Program-made: the position numbers and the translations under genes
Assembly (NCBI RefSeq): GCF_014705615.1
Contig: NZ_JACXJA010000029.1
Span: 62,001-126,000, forward strand
DNA: 64,000 nucleotides
Direction of reading: 5' to 3'
From: Paenibacillus oceani
GTDB lineage: Bacteria; Bacillota; Bacilli; Paenibacillales; NBRC-103111
Notes under the pieces: model-generated
The model's input: only the letters and a program-made list of their open reading frames with translations
The model's database searches: none
Told to the model about the DNA's origin: nothing
Part shown: positions 1,881-27,780 of the stretch, piece by piece
Layout of the letters: each line of letters opens with the position of its first letter
How positions within the stretch are numbered: the stretch's first letter is position 1

Positions 1881-1897
1881 ACAAGTCTTATACTTGT
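1881..1897. promoter_or_regulatory. Palindromic operator candidate
   Basis: ACAAGT-cttat-ACTTGT is a perfect 6-base inverted repeat with a 5-base spacer, just after the -10 element and therefore over or near the transcription start. This is a usual position for a repressor site. No adjacent regulator gene is evident. Confidence 0.45.
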
Positions 1898-1917
1898 GGA
1901 TAAGAGGAGTGATGGCG

Positions 1918-3717
1918 ATGAGCCGGGAACAAGATCAGTTCGAATTAATCGGACGTCCTTGCCGCAATTTCAACATTCTTGCAACCGCAGTAATGACAGA
2001 CCCGCTCGACGGACGGGAGAAGCTGGTGCTGTCCAACTTCGCGGCCGGACAGACCGGCAATCTGATCCTGATCGATACGCGCTCGATGGAAGCCGAGTCG
2101 ATCGAACTTCCGGGGGATGAAGGAGCCTGGGGACTTGTTAACTGGCGCAATGAAAAGCTCGTGGTCGGGACGTGTCCGAACTATGCGTATATGCATGCCC
2201 TGGACTTGAAGACCCGGACTTGGGCGGAGCCGCTGCAGGCGGCAGACGAGAAATATTTCTGGGATATGGCGATCGGCTCCGACGGCAACGTATACGCGGG
2301 AACTTGGCCCGGCTGCTCCTTATACCGCTACGATCCGGCTCTGCATACGCTCGAGAAGCTCGGCAGGGCGTCGGACAACGGTAAAAATTTATACAGCCGC
2401 TACATTAACGGCAGCGCGCCCGGTTATATTTTGTTTACCGGAGGTTACGACGAGCCGTTTTTGAAAGCGTTTCATTTGGAGAGCGGGACGTTTCGCGATT
2501 TCGGAACGCCGGGATTTACCGTGCGCGAAGTAACCGACGAGTACATATGCACCGTACAAGGAGACCGCTTCGAATTTTATCATCCGCAAACGCTGGAGCC
2601 GCTCCCGGATACCGCAGGCTGGAAGGAAAAGCTGACTGTATTGGAAGCGGCGCTGCCGAACGGCAAAAGCTGCAGGGCGATCCCGCTGGCGGACGGGCGG
2701 TATGCGGGGGTGCGCGGTCAAGATCTGTTTATCGCGGACAGCCTGGACGAGGTGCCGGAACTGGTCCGCATTCCGACGGAGGCGCCGGCCACGCGCATCC
2801 ATACGCTCGTATCGGACGAGGCGGGCGGGATATGGGGAGCGTGCGGCTTCGGCCAGACGATCTTCCATTACGATCCGTTGACCGGCTCCGCCTGGAACTC
2901 GTCCTCGGTATGTGATTCCGGCGGAGAAGTGTACGGGATGGTGTTTGTGGACGGTAAATTGTATTTGACGGCTTACGTCGGCGGAGATCACATCGTGTAC
3001 GACCCGGCGAAGCCGTGGGATCAGCTGAACAACCGGAATCCGCAATCGCTTCGGGCGCTGAGACCGGATTATATCCGTCCGGAAGGACGAAGCGTGATCG
3101 GGCCGGACGGCGGGATCTGGACCGGGTGGTCGGCCAAATACGGCACGTATGCAGGGGCGCTGTCCAGAATCGACCCGGTTACGCTGGAGGTGGATTCCTG
3201 GAGCCATCCGATCGCAAACGATCAACAGGTGGCCGGAGTAGCCGCAGACGACCGGTATGTTTATTTTACGACGAACGGCGGTGCCAGCGGACTGCCCTAT
3301 CGCGATGTGATCTGCCATTTCGGCGTATGGGAGCCTGGCAAAGGACTCGTGCACGAGACCCGGTTCGCCGCAGGCGAACGTCCCGGCTCCGCGATTGCGG
3401 CTATGTGCGCCAAAGTATTTGTCAAAGCGGGCAGCGCGATTCTCGTATTCGATCGGGCCCGGTTCCGATTCGAGCAATCGATCCCCGTCGAGGGGGGATG
3501 CAGCTGGATGACGGCCGCCGGTCCGGATTTGCTGGCCGCGTTTTGCGGCAGCAGGCTGCTCTTCATCGACCCGCACAGCGCTGTCGTTATCCGGACCGTC
3601 GAGCTGCCCGGCTCCGTCAGGGCGGCAACGTATACAGCGACATGCGATCTGGCGTTCGCCGTAGAAGAGGCTCTCTATCGCGTGCCGTCCGGATTTTTGC
3701 AGTCGGTTCGTTCTTGA
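1918..3717 (+). CDS. Cytosolic beta-propeller (WD40/Vgb-like) protein
   Basis: The 599-residue product has no signal peptide and no membrane segment. It consists of repeated four-stranded blade-like units with recurring motifs such as GSDGNVYAGTWPGCSLYRYDP, GGIWGACGFGQTIFHYDP and GPDGGIWTGWSAKYGTYAGALSRIDP, which resemble the blades of the streptogramin lyase/SMP-30-like and WD40-like superfamily. Similar two-propeller proteins are common in Paenibacillus and are of unknown function. The start at ATG 1918 is preferred over ATG 1912 because AGAGGAG is eight bases upstream of 1918 but only two from 1912. The gene stands alone with its own promoter and a terminator-like hairpin. I can not assign a substrate or catalytic residues. 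Confidence 0.75.
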   Translation: MSREQDQFELIGRPCRNFNILATAVMTDPLDGREKLVLSNFAAGQTGNLILIDTRSMEAESIELPGDEGAWGLVNWRNEKLVVGTCPNYAYMHALDLKTRTWAEPLQAADEKYFWDMAIGSDGNVYAGTWPGCSLYRYDPALHTLEKLGRASDNGKNLYSRYINGSAPGYILFTGGYDEPFLKAFHLESGTFRDFGTPGFTVREVTDEYICTVQGDRFEFYHPQTLEPLPDTAGWKEKLTVLEAALPNGKSCRAIPLADGRYAGVRGQDLFIADSLDEVPELVRIPTEAPATRIHTLVSDEAGGIWGACGFGQTIFHYDPLTGSAWNSSSVCDSGGEVYGMVFVDGKLYLTAYVGGDHIVYDPAKPWDQLNNRNPQSLRALRPDYIRPEGRSVIGPDGGIWTGWSAKYGTYAGALSRIDPVTLEVDSWSHPIANDQQVAGVAADDRYVYFTTNGGASGLPYRDVICHFGVWEPGKGLVHETRFAAGERPGSAIAAMCAKVFVKAGSAILVFDRARFRFEQSIPVEGGCSWMTAAGPDLLAAFCGSRLLFIDPHSAVVIRTVELPGSVRAATYTATCDLAFAVEEALYRVPSGFLQSVRS

Positions 3718-3801: not shown

Positions 3802-3913
3802 TTTGCCGTTTAGGGAGGTAAGTAAGATCAGATAGAACCGTGGTCATCATCGATCCACCAAGCACCGGGAGCAGCAGCGTGGTGTGCGCCGGAATCAATG
3901 CTCACCGATTATG

Positions 3914-4103
3914 TAGCGGAAGCGCGGTTTCCGTTATTCCCGTAACAGGCCTAATTGTTGGGCTATAACGGAAGTTTGGTTTCCGCTATTTCGGCTTATT
4001 AAGGTGAAATGGCCGGTTGCACTGGAAATAACGGAACAAATTGTTCCGCTAAACATCGATTTTCTGCTTCGCACAATAAATAACGGAAGTAAAACTTCCG
4101 ATA
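3914..4103. repeat. Array of four 23-bp palindromes
   Basis: Four copies of TAnCGGAA-N7-TTCCGnTA begin at 3914, 3966, 4029 and 4081. All keep a 7-base spacer of unrelated sequence, and they are 52, 63 and 52 bases apart. They fill the middle of a 716-base gap between the beta-propeller gene and gapB. No coding potential is visible in this stretch. Confidence 0.8.
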
Positions 4104-4334
4104 AGAGGCGTCACAGACACCGTCTGGAGCCGTTTTTGCAGAGATATGCCTCAAATCGGCTGCACGACTGCGGATGCGAATGCGGATGGGGCGGCGGCTG
4201 GAGCAAAACAGCCGTATTCTTCGATGCATTCACCGGAATGTCGGCATACCCAATCATCGTCGGATGTTCTCTCCGGCTGCACGTTATAAGCGTTGTTCAT
4301 CAGAAAGAGAGGGTTCAATATGCAATATTCTCAA

Positions 4335-4354
4335 TAATTAGTATGTACTAATTA
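4335..4354. promoter_or_regulatory. Palindromic operator candidate upstream of gapB
   Basis: TAATTAGTA-tg-TACTAATTA is a perfect nine-base inverted repeat around a two-base centre, about 80 bases before the gap start codon. A further ATTAGTA half-site occurs at 4413-4419 just before the ribosome binding site. The pattern suits a dimeric repressor, but I do not recognise the family. Confidence 0.5.
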
Positions 4355-4433: not shown

Positions 4434-5483
4434 ATGACAGTGGGGATCGGAATTAACGGAATGGGAAGAATCGGGCGCCTGCTCGTCCGGCGGGCTTTTA
4501 CGGAAGGGGAATTGAATATCCGGGCCATCAATGTGCTGCATCCGGCCGACTCGGTTGCGCATTTGCTCAAGTATGATTCCGTTCACGGCCGCTGGGATGC
4601 GGACATTCGTACGGAAGACGGCAATCTGGTGATCAATGGCCATACGGTGCGTCTTTTATCCGAGCGCGATCCGCAGCTTATTTCTTGGAACGACTGCGGG
4701 GTCGATCTGGTGCTGGATGCCACCGGCAAATTTAACGATGTCGCGGGGGCTGCGAAACATCTGGCGGGTGGGGCGCAAAACGTAATTGTTACCGCACCGG
4801 GTTCGGGACTCGATCTGACTGTCGTCATGGGAGTAAACGACCGCAGCTATGACCCGGACCGGCATAAGCTGATATCCGCCGCCTCCTGCACGACAAATTG
4901 CGTGGCGCCCGTGCTCCGGATCGTTGACGAATTGTTCGGCGTTAAACGTGCCTGGGTGACGACTGTTCATGCGTATACGAACGACCAGAATCATCTGGAC
5001 AATCCGCACAAAGATTTGCGGCGCGCCCGTTCCTGTACGCAGTCGATCGTTCCGACGACGACGGGCATCGGCAAAGCGCTGGCCGGCGTATTGCCGCATC
5101 TGGCGCCGGTCGTTGAGGGCGTGTCGCTGCGCGTCCCGGTGCCGAACGTATCGTTGTGCGATATAACGCTGGATCTGGGAGAAGAGATAAGCACGGAGTA
5201 CGCAACCGCCAGATTGCGTTCCGCTTGCATGAGTCCGCAATATTCCCGGTATGTAGGGTGGAGCGAGGAACCGCTGGTTTCCACCGATTACGTAGGGTGC
5301 GACAAATCGGCTACCATCGACGGATTATCGTTGTCTGCGGCCGGAAGGCAGCTCAAGCTGCTCGCCTGGTACGATAACGAATGGGGGTATGCATGCCGTG
5401 TAATCGACACAGCCAAGATGGTGGCGGATGCCGGGCTCAAACGGTTGAAGGAGAGGGAAGCTGCGGTTTTGGAAAATGTGTAG
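4434..5483 (+). CDS. gapB: GapB-type glyceraldehyde-3-phosphate dehydrogenase
   Basis: The 349-residue protein has the Rossmann start GINGMGRIGRLLVRRA, the catalytic cysteine C152 in SAASCTTNC, the catalytic histidine in VTTVHAYTNDQ, and the C-terminal LAWYDNEWGY motif. Several segments follow Bacillus subtilis GapB rather than GapA: VAHLLKYDSVHGRWD, DNPHKDLRRARSCTQSI and EPLVSTDYVG. The acidic residue after the second strand that makes GapA NAD-specific is absent (AINVLHPADS), which fits use of NADP(H) in gluconeogenesis. GGGGAGG lies eight bases before ATG 4434. A second, glycolytic gap gene should exist elsewhere. The gluconeogenic role agrees with the PPDK-CcpN module 10 kb away. Confidence 0.85.
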   Translation: MTVGIGINGMGRIGRLLVRRAFTEGELNIRAINVLHPADSVAHLLKYDSVHGRWDADIRTEDGNLVINGHTVRLLSERDPQLISWNDCGVDLVLDATGKFNDVAGAAKHLAGGAQNVIVTAPGSGLDLTVVMGVNDRSYDPDRHKLISAASCTTNCVAPVLRIVDELFGVKRAWVTTVHAYTNDQNHLDNPHKDLRRARSCTQSIVPTTTGIGKALAGVLPHLAPVVEGVSLRVPVPNVSLCDITLDLGEEISTEYATARLRSACMSPQYSRYVGWSEEPLVSTDYVGCDKSATIDGLSLSAAGRQLKLLAWYDNEWGYACRVIDTAKMVADAGLKRLKEREAAVLENV

Positions 5484-25866: not shown

Positions 25867-27780
25867 ATGACGGATAATGGGAACGGAAACCAAAACCAAA
25901 ACCAAAACCAAAACCAAAACCAAAACCAAAACCAAAACCAAAACCAAAACCAAAACCAAAACCAAAACCAAAACCAGGTACACGCCGACGAAAGTGTAGG
26001 GAACAAACTGGCGAAGTCGAAGGCGAAGGCGGAGACCGAAACCAAACCCGGTTGGAGCCGCAGAAGGCTGCTCGCCTCGATCGGGGCGGCGGGTGCAACT
26101 TTCGCTGCGGCGGGACTGCTTGGAAGGAGCGGTGTCGCATACGGCAATAGCCCCAGCGTAACCGATAGCGTATACGAAATTAGCGGCAGGCGGCGTGTAC
26201 CCGACTTGTTGAGCATGAATCTCCTAGTTGCCGTCACGATAGCCGAGTTAAGAGTGATGAGCTCCCCCGAACCGGACGTTGTGTATTACGTGAGCGATTC
26301 CGGGAAAGAGGGACACTTTCATTACGACCCCGCGGATTCCGCAACCCCGGACAATACGGGAACCGTGATCGTCACCTCTAGCGGGGCAAGGTTGAAACGA
26401 ATCCTGGAAGCAGGGACGGTGAATGTCGCCTGGTTCGGTGCCGCAGGGGACGGGATTACAGACGATGCGCCGGCGATTCAGGCCGCCCTCGATGCGATCC
26501 CGCCGGGAGGAGGCACGCTGCTGCTTCCTACAACCGGGTCGTTTTACGCGCTCGCAAGCCAAGGGCTGACGATCGAAAACCGGAATCATCTGGCCCTCTG
26601 CTCATCCGGAGCAACCCTAAAATTCAAGGACGGCACACCCGACATCAAAAACAGGGATATGAAGCAAAGCAACATTTTATTAAAAAATTGCCGCCATATT
26701 CGCTTGGAAGGGCTCATCTTGCACGGCAATGTATCCGGGAGGGTGGCCAATTCGGGATCGGAAAGCTTCCATTCCTGCTTAAGCATCATCAAGTGCGAAG
26801 ATGTCCGAATCAGCCACTGCACCTTTACGGAGGGGATGACTGACGGGATCTACATCGGCGGTATTTATACCGGACCGGCTTCGACCGGCACCGCTGCCGT
26901 CAGCAAACACATCTCCATCGATTTCTGCATCGTCAGCCTGTGCCGGAGAAACAACATCTCGATTGTGGCGGCGGACGGCGTAACGGTGTCGAACTGCCTG
27001 ATCAGCGAAGCCGGCAAAATTCAAGGAACCGCTCCCAGAGCGGGCATCGACGTGGAGCCGAATAAAGGATGGTACGGGACCAGCAAAAACATCGTGCTGC
27101 AAAATAATACGGTGGAATACAGCGAAGGCACCTACGGCGTAACCGTCGGAGGGAGCGGCAACGAAAACGTGGTGATCGACGGCAACCGGATTACAGGCAA
27201 CAAAACGGGATTAAATTTCAACAACAATGCCGATGCTCCAGACAATCGAAATGTGCAGGTCATCAACAATACGGTTACCCGGAATATGACGGGAATGCGG
27301 ATGGTGAGCAAAAACGTGGATACGATCTGCGGCAACCTGTTTGCAGATAATGAAAGCGTCGGTCTGGTCTTGTTCCATAAAACCGACGGGCTAAAAATCA
27401 TCTCGAACAAATTTACCCGCAACGCCAGCTACGGAATTAGCGGAGGGTATCCTTCCGCCAACACCGAAAACAATGTGATTTCCGTTTTCATTTCCGAAAA
27501 CGAGTTCCAGGACAATACGTCCGAGGCGACAGCATCGTCCGGCGGCGCATCGGTCAGGCTTTATATGCGCGATGCATCTTCCAAAGTAATCTTCAATAAC
27601 AACGCTCAATTTAATTCCGAGGATGCCCTGTACAAAATGAAAGGGGTCTGGGTCGACCAGGATTGCATCGCCCGGGCGAACGGCAATACGGCCTGGAACT
27701 TGTACGATAATAATAAACCGCACGAACGCTTTGCCGGCGCTGGCAACTATTCCGCGGATGCCGCCGTGCCGGAATTATAG
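25867..27780 (+). CDS. Tat-exported right-handed beta-helix protein with (Asn-Gln)15 N terminus
   Basis: From ATG 25867 (GGAGG eight bases upstream) the product is 637 residues. Residues 8-37 are fifteen Asn-Gln pairs encoded by AACCAA hexamers. A charged linker follows, then a twin-arginine signal (SRRRLLAS, hydrophobic GAAGATFAAAGLLG, cleavage near AYG). The mature part opens with VAWFGAAGDGITDDAPAIQA, the pectate-lyase-3/phage-tailspike N-terminal motif, and continues as parallel beta-helix coils rich in NN, NxI and GN turns (NNTVEYSEG, DGNRITGNKTGLNF). It is probably a surface or secreted polysaccharide-active protein; the activity is not assigned. The Asn-Gln tail before a Tat signal is unusual. 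Confidence 0.85.
   Translation: MTDNGNGNQNQNQNQNQNQNQNQNQNQNQNQNQNQNQVHADESVGNKLAKSKAKAETETKPGWSRRRLLASIGAAGATFAAAGLLGRSGVAYGNSPSVTDSVYEISGRRRVPDLLSMNLLVAVTIAELRVMSSPEPDVVYYVSDSGKEGHFHYDPADSATPDNTGTVIVTSSGARLKRILEAGTVNVAWFGAAGDGITDDAPAIQAALDAIPPGGGTLLLPTTGSFYALASQGLTIENRNHLALCSSGATLKFKDGTPDIKNRDMKQSNILLKNCRHIRLEGLILHGNVSGRVANSGSESFHSCLSIIKCEDVRISHCTFTEGMTDGIYIGGIYTGPASTGTAAVSKHISIDFCIVSLCRRNNISIVAADGVTVSNCLISEAGKIQGTAPRAGIDVEPNKGWYGTSKNIVLQNNTVEYSEGTYGVTVGGSGNENVVIDGNRITGNKTGLNFNNNADAPDNRNVQVINNTVTRNMTGMRMVSKNVDTICGNLFADNESVGLVLFHKTDGLKIISNKFTRNASYGISGGYPSANTENNVISVFISENEFQDNTSEATASSGGASVRLYMRDASSKVIFNNNAQFNSEDALYKMKGVWVDQDCIARANGNTAWNLYDNNKPHERFAGAGNYSADAAVPEL
25888..25977 (+). repeat. Hexanucleotide AACCAA array inside the coding region
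   Basis: Fifteen AACCAA units (the last one AACCAG) encode (Asn-Gln)15. Gain or loss of units would change the length of the N-terminal tail without shifting the frame. Confidence 0.95.

Follow-up and report, generated by a model that had tools for sequence, protein, structure and literature searches.

REP elements and BIMEs are short, dispersed intergenic palindromes that occur in clusters and in many copies per genome. ParB/Noc-type sites are palindromes scattered over the chromosome and bound by one protein, and the res sites of the Tn3 family consist of three dimer subsites, at near-whole-turn spacing, that adjoin the resolvase gene. An excerpt of one account describes REPs as regularly spaced, alternating in orientation and serving as protein binding sites (PMC2817692). 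We found no description of four-site phased arrays in the open-licence literature, and a term search of PMC3733652 returned no mention of Paenibacillus.

The array in the window

The window, a stretch of 64,000 nucleotides (G000:C22:62001-126000), belongs to an 8.05 Mb Paenibacillus-like assembly. A first-pass annotation had placed four palindromes of the form TAnCGGAA-N7-TTCCGnTA at 3914, 3966, 4029 and 4081, at distances of 52, 63 and 52 bases and with the centres GCGCGGT, GTTTGGT, CAAATTG and GTAAAAC. We recovered all of these, and each unit matched the pattern with 0 mismatches. Allowing up to three mismatches, the window holds nine matches versus 2.96 ± 1.72 in 100 shuffles, and the only perfect ones are the four array units. 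The features of the locus are as follows.

1894..3717, + strand: left-hand gene, with a weak DUF5074 match (Pfam) below the cut-off
3889..3913, - strand: short outer flank on the opposite side, weakly common to other copies (by eye)
3914..3936, unstranded: unit, a palindrome with a 7-bp centre, the fourth in the family-consensus orientation (perfect match)
3937..3965, unstranded: linker of 29 bp, constrained in length and free in sequence (column information content)
3966..3988, unstranded: unit, 52 bp past the preceding unit at 3914 (perfect match)
3989..4028, unstranded: central linker of 40 bp
4029..4051, unstranded: unit, 63 bp past the preceding unit at 3966 (perfect match)
4052..4080, unstranded: linker of 29 bp
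4081..4103, unstranded: unit, 52 bp past the preceding unit at 4029, the first in the family orientation (perfect match)
4104..4171, - strand: outer repeat flank, with a near-GCAGTCGTGTTG motif (2 mismatches) that starts 68 bp outside the array
4434..5483, + strand: right-hand gene, glyceraldehyde-3-phosphate dehydrogenase

The window copy (L020) lies in reverse orientation relative to the family, and its near-GCAGTCGTGTTG flank motif is common to other copies at 64-78 bp. A solitary unit-like palindrome with two mismatches lies at 27438-27460, and a sub-threshold Rfam match to SNORD26 at 4283-4337 is likely due to chance. No unit with a 7-bp centre (class 1) was found within about 1.5 kb of the left-gene orthologues in three relatives (G002, G003 and G004). 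Because the dehydrogenase gene is also not adjacent to these orthologues, they offer no clean empty site for the window copy.

Copies, distribution and helical phasing

A search of the whole source genome returned 147 CGGAA-N7-TTCCG sites versus nine for the reversed control pattern, so the genome contains many dispersed extragenic palindromes, as do genomes with REPs and BIMEs. The four-unit pattern at exactly 52-63-52 with up to two mismatches occurred 34 times, and its reversed control was absent. We took 40 loci around listed sites: 36 contained arrays and four (L013, L033, L043 and L044) a single site. The 36 loci resolve into 38 arrays, 37 of which were measured; 29 are exactly 52-63-52 and eight deviate from this by 1 bp in a single step. 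Five further listed arrays (on C11, C61 and C71, and two on C89) bring the count to at least 43. According to heuristic gene calls, the arrays are intergenic. At L036 (1515-1580) additional units adjoin the array in 21-bp steps.

The search for clusters and their spacings had been proposed by the first-pass annotation, which named evenly spread spacings as the outcome that would speak against phasing. No such spread was seen. With the spacing left free between 39 and 69 bp, the source genome yielded 109 pairs, 108 of them at 51-64 bp and none at 54-61 bp. Summed over the eight genomes rich in class-1 pairs, the same scan gave 855 pairs; five fell at 54-61 bp, all in G002, and the other seven genomes had none. 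The reversed control gave 18 pairs in total over 103 genomes. Adjacent centre-to-centre spacings of 15-80 bp in the fetched loci numbered 489, a total inflated by class-1 loci of G002, G003, G004, G092 and G098 that were picked by the exact 52-63-52 pattern: 318 fell at 50-53 bp, 148 at 61-64, 11 at 71-73, five at 31-32 and two at 21, and five fell elsewhere (24, 40.5, 43, 47 and 77). L194 and L196, which duplicate the array of L192, were dropped from this set, and L102-L191 and L202-L207 were excluded. Since the class-1 spacings of the five pattern-picked genomes are non-independent evidence, the independent evidence comes from the source genome and from the central gaps of class 2 (below). 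A periodogram of 64 distinct group-by-spacing values had its best period at 10.3 bp with a resultant of 0.80 (99.9% of the null, 0.40). The units are therefore spaced at whole helical turns.

The exact-spacing four-unit pattern with at most one mismatch was found in six of 104 genomes of the family (reversed control, 0), with 33 arrays in the source genome (G000), 2 in G002, 22 in G003, 6 in G004, 30 in G092 and 54 in G098. A scan of 84,980 species, which may omit the source genome, detected the exact pattern in Paenibacillus foliorum (G092), P. radicis (G098), P. hemerocallicola (G003), P. mesophilus (G004) and P. ginsengarvi (G002). With free spacing, class-1 pairs are plentiful in eight of 103 family genomes. 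This presence is patchy: no pair of either class occurs in G001, which belongs to the same genus. Across 392 genomes of the order the same eight were rich, and 383 others held 0-2 pairs. G226, with 18 class-1 pairs, was omitted from the rich genomes; its listed pairs come from a single-contig tandem repeat of 51 bp (C24:18151-18675) that contains GGAACTTTGAGTTCC and is probably unrelated. Among viral contigs the exact patterns of both classes had 0 matches, and the window copy had no blastn match among plasmids or phages, so neither search placed the array with phage or plasmid elements. The view of the first-pass annotation that the array could belong to an intergenic repeat family that spreads is supported by the dozens of dispersed copies in the source genome and its relatives.

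Class 2 consists of units with a 5-bp centre in the same layout, first noticed beside the G003 orthologue. Among 103 family genomes class-2 pairs number, for example, 199 in G003, 169 in G026 and 82 in G006. In the order scan of 392 genomes, 21 had at least six class-2 pairs, versus at most five in the control. These 21 comprise 12 from f1, one from f6 and eight from f10; the class-2 sequences inspected come from f1 and from G118 (f9), and the figures for f6 and f10 are counts alone to which tandem repeats could contribute. At 40 class-2 loci most outer spacings measure 51-52 bp and the central one is 60-63 or 72-73 bp, with none at 64-71 bp, apart from a few side matches of weak units outside the main spacings. 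Overall, the class-2 central gap jumps by one extra turn, from 60-63 to 71-73 bp, with no intermediates.

Layouts vary between genomes. The 51-71/72-51 form was found in G026, where two of three loci are clean and one has a weak extra match inside the gap, and at single loci of G022 and G023; G026 counts 169 class-2 pairs at 39-69 bp versus 255 at 50-74 bp. Two of three G021 loci are 51-51-51, and G037 and G040 have 50-61/62-50. G024 and G025 have 52-64-52 and also contain units with 6-bp centres, in runs of up to eight. Many G002 pairs lie at 53 and 64 bp among the matches listed, and 10 of 20 loci of G003 carry extra units at 31-32 bp. The array layout is thus retained across genera although the linkers are unrelated.

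Class 2 has further peculiarities. The third linker of L209-L221, L234, L241 and L244-L247 (G006, G002 and G004) often holds two GGGAAAT motifs, 10-11 bp apart and conserved across genera. CGTAC often replaces CGGAA in one left half-site at a fixed array place, the third or fourth unit of L210, L211, L218, L221, L226, L227 and L233. In G036 (C7:125238-126563) class-2 pairs recur in tandem about every 290 bp.

Half-sites, selection and turnover

The first-pass annotation had also considered a structured multi-hairpin RNA. Each unit can indeed fold, but the variable arm positions do not covary in either class. Across 86 class-1 arrays, arm pairing at positions 3/21, 4/20 and 9/15 equalled the expectation from arms permuted within each genome; for position 4/20 of units 1-4, 58, 57, 47 and 47 pairs were observed versus 58.1, 56.3, 47.4 and 43.6 expected. 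In class 2, position 4/18 was paired in 112 of 148 units (112.9 expected) from 37 arrays, two of them overlapping arrays contributed by L225. The exception was unit 4 of G003, with 9 of 20 paired at position 4/20 (5.0 expected, p 0.024). As the variable positions show no covariation, the units act as independent double-stranded half-sites rather than RNA stems.

The arms thus lack the compensatory change that would maintain a single-strand stem, as in REPs and BIMEs, with an exception in two places: in G092 the arms extended outside unit 2 covary, as do those outside unit 3 in G098, with T-runs beside them. These extensions (unit 2 of L045-L063; unit 3 of L064 and L085-L093) resemble bidirectional terminators. 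They look like added terminators, and in these two species some copies can therefore form a hairpin as well. Rfam returned no match at gathering score over the arrays of eight loci, only an unrelated 6S RNA (RF00013, L174:1137-1317) near a P. radicis array; the SNORD26 match near the window copy is sub-threshold. In a single strand, nothing would account for length steps of whole turns. We consider the RNA explanation very improbable.

The arms are far more conserved than the DNA between them. Column information in the source genome was 1.38-1.47 bits in the units, 0.47-0.60 in the linkers and 0.12 in the flanks. The linkers are almost random (median divergence 61%), whereas GGAA differs by less than 2%. 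Linker divergence in the source genome was 0.6-0.8 in 240 of 406 array pairs, and these pairs (linker divergence 0.65) differed by 0.017 at GGAA/TTCC and by 0.055 at the inner TA. The flank motif was present in seven of 29 arrays, at 64, 65, 68, 68, 68, 78 and 133 bp; the match at 133 bp has three mismatches and could be fortuitous. These distances indicate that length varies outside the arrays and hardly inside. On the strength of these sequence comparisons, the arms and phasing of resident copies are under selection.

The arrays also appear to turn over. Few array places are shared between species, with one clear shared locus (L045 in G092 and L093 in G098), and 57 of 666 array pairs in P. 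radicis have a linker divergence below 0.15, showing that arrays spread or are copied. The homology of some P. radicis copies spans 600-820 bp and has a recurrent left end; in L103, L118, L174, L175, L170 and L133 the arrays sit in such shared non-coding DNA, and the left end is terminator-like. The long copies contain no ORF of note.

These observations, together with the few neighbour families in common, would fit a selfish repeat, MITE-like or REP-like, in which the array is a recognition piece for a transposase or recombinase and its phasing is selected only for movement. We regard this as unlikely. The ends of the copies, inspected by eye in a single group from P. radicis and in two further subfamilies, gave no clear sign of terminal inverted repeats or of target duplications. 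Moreover, GGAA is no less intact in old copies (linker divergence of at least 0.6) than in young ones, which selection on movement alone would not easily explain. Decayed arrays were looked for at only the four single-site loci; two sites have a TA-like arm, and neither has a recognisable partner unit.

Recombination sites, with conserved arms around a variable centre of 5-7 bp, are another form that such DNA could take, and the succession of arm, short variable centre and arm recalls tyrosine-recombinase core sites. Yet the centres seem, by eye, unmatched between the units of one array, and such a site has no need of four phased units. We consider this reading very improbable.

Palindromes and phasing are typical of operators, and the arrays could be complex four-dimer operators at the promoters of a large regulon. 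Gene orientation, judged with GC-based heuristic calls and no gene finder, did not support the array as a promoter operator in general. Neighbours were called on both sides, with no ORF running across the array, for 81 class-1 arrays: nine have divergent neighbours, but 25 are convergent and 47 tandem; in the source genome 13 of 33 are convergent and one is divergent. In class 2, neighbours were called on both sides of 34 arrays (11 divergent, five convergent and 18 tandem), and six more arrays lie at edges. The neighbours have no common family. The first-pass annotation had advised noting the neighbouring genes; comparing them across genomes as a clue to the binding protein (182 proteins, 12 small clusters) produced no recurrent family, none of the clusters occurring in four or more genomes. 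A promoter function is thus improbable.

A proposed complex and its relation to known systems

Taken together, these results suggest that the array probably belongs to a scattered non-coding family of phased docking platforms, each for four dimers, which turn over and are under selection. Each 21-23 bp unit would be a double-stranded palindromic site, made of TAnMGGAA half-sites, to which one DNA-binding protein would bind as a dimer; we infer this protein, its contacts and the role of the complex. With four units 5-6-5 helical turns apart, all four dimers would sit on the same face of a stretch of about 190 bp. Neighbouring dimers would touch and form a defined nucleoprotein complex, in which the intervening DNA matters mainly by its length. 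Copies would change place in evolution while the arms and phasing of the resident ones stay selected. Rather than switching promoters, such a complex may have an architectural role, in bridging, in looping or in the loading of a protein for chromosome organisation or mobility. The one-face operator array of the first-pass annotation is supported by phasing in several genera, by central gaps that differ by whole turns and by independent half-sites, and its protein is putative. That annotation had set operator array and repeat family against each other, but the two are compatible.

A broader reading, which we put forward tentatively, is that the arrays belong to a nucleoprotein system of the order that extends over the whole chromosome and has so far gone undescribed. 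Its DNA-binding proteins, paralogous or co-evolving, would assemble on dispersed arrays that serve as chromosome-organising anchors; centres of 5, 6 or 7 bp would set the half-site distances, in arrays of 5-6-5, 5-5-5 or 5-7-5 turns.

Strict phasing across genera, whole-turn jumps and randomised linkers amount to a natural experiment, which points to selection on an assembled one-face protein complex at tens of places per genome. The arrays may reveal a new chromosome-organising or mobility protein of Gram-positive soil bacteria. The array is a ready bait for a pull-down, and linker changes of 5 bp versus 10-11 bp would be a clean test.

Among described systems, REPs and BIMEs are likewise short, dispersed, clustered intergenic palindromes in many copies; the arrays differ from them in having four units at whole turns and arms without covariation, and no GTAG/CGTC family tag was seen. 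MITEs resemble the arrays in being non-coding and dispersed, with recent copies in P. radicis, but neither terminal inverted repeats nor target duplications were clearly seen at the array ends inspected. Phased operator or origin arrays, such as the DnaA boxes of oriC (compare PMC4285127), likewise have sites in phase with the helix on which a nucleoprotein complex forms; they occupy one or few loci per genome, whereas the arrays form a dispersed family of at least 43 copies. Tn3-family res sites similarly join several dimer sites, as we propose here, at near-whole-turn spacing, but they have three subsites beside a resolvase gene instead of four units. ParB/Noc-type sites share the scatter of palindromes over the chromosome and, if our proposal is right, the single binding protein. 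The half-site order differs from that of the Noc site, and ParB/Noc-type sites are single, whereas the palindromes described here come as phased fours.
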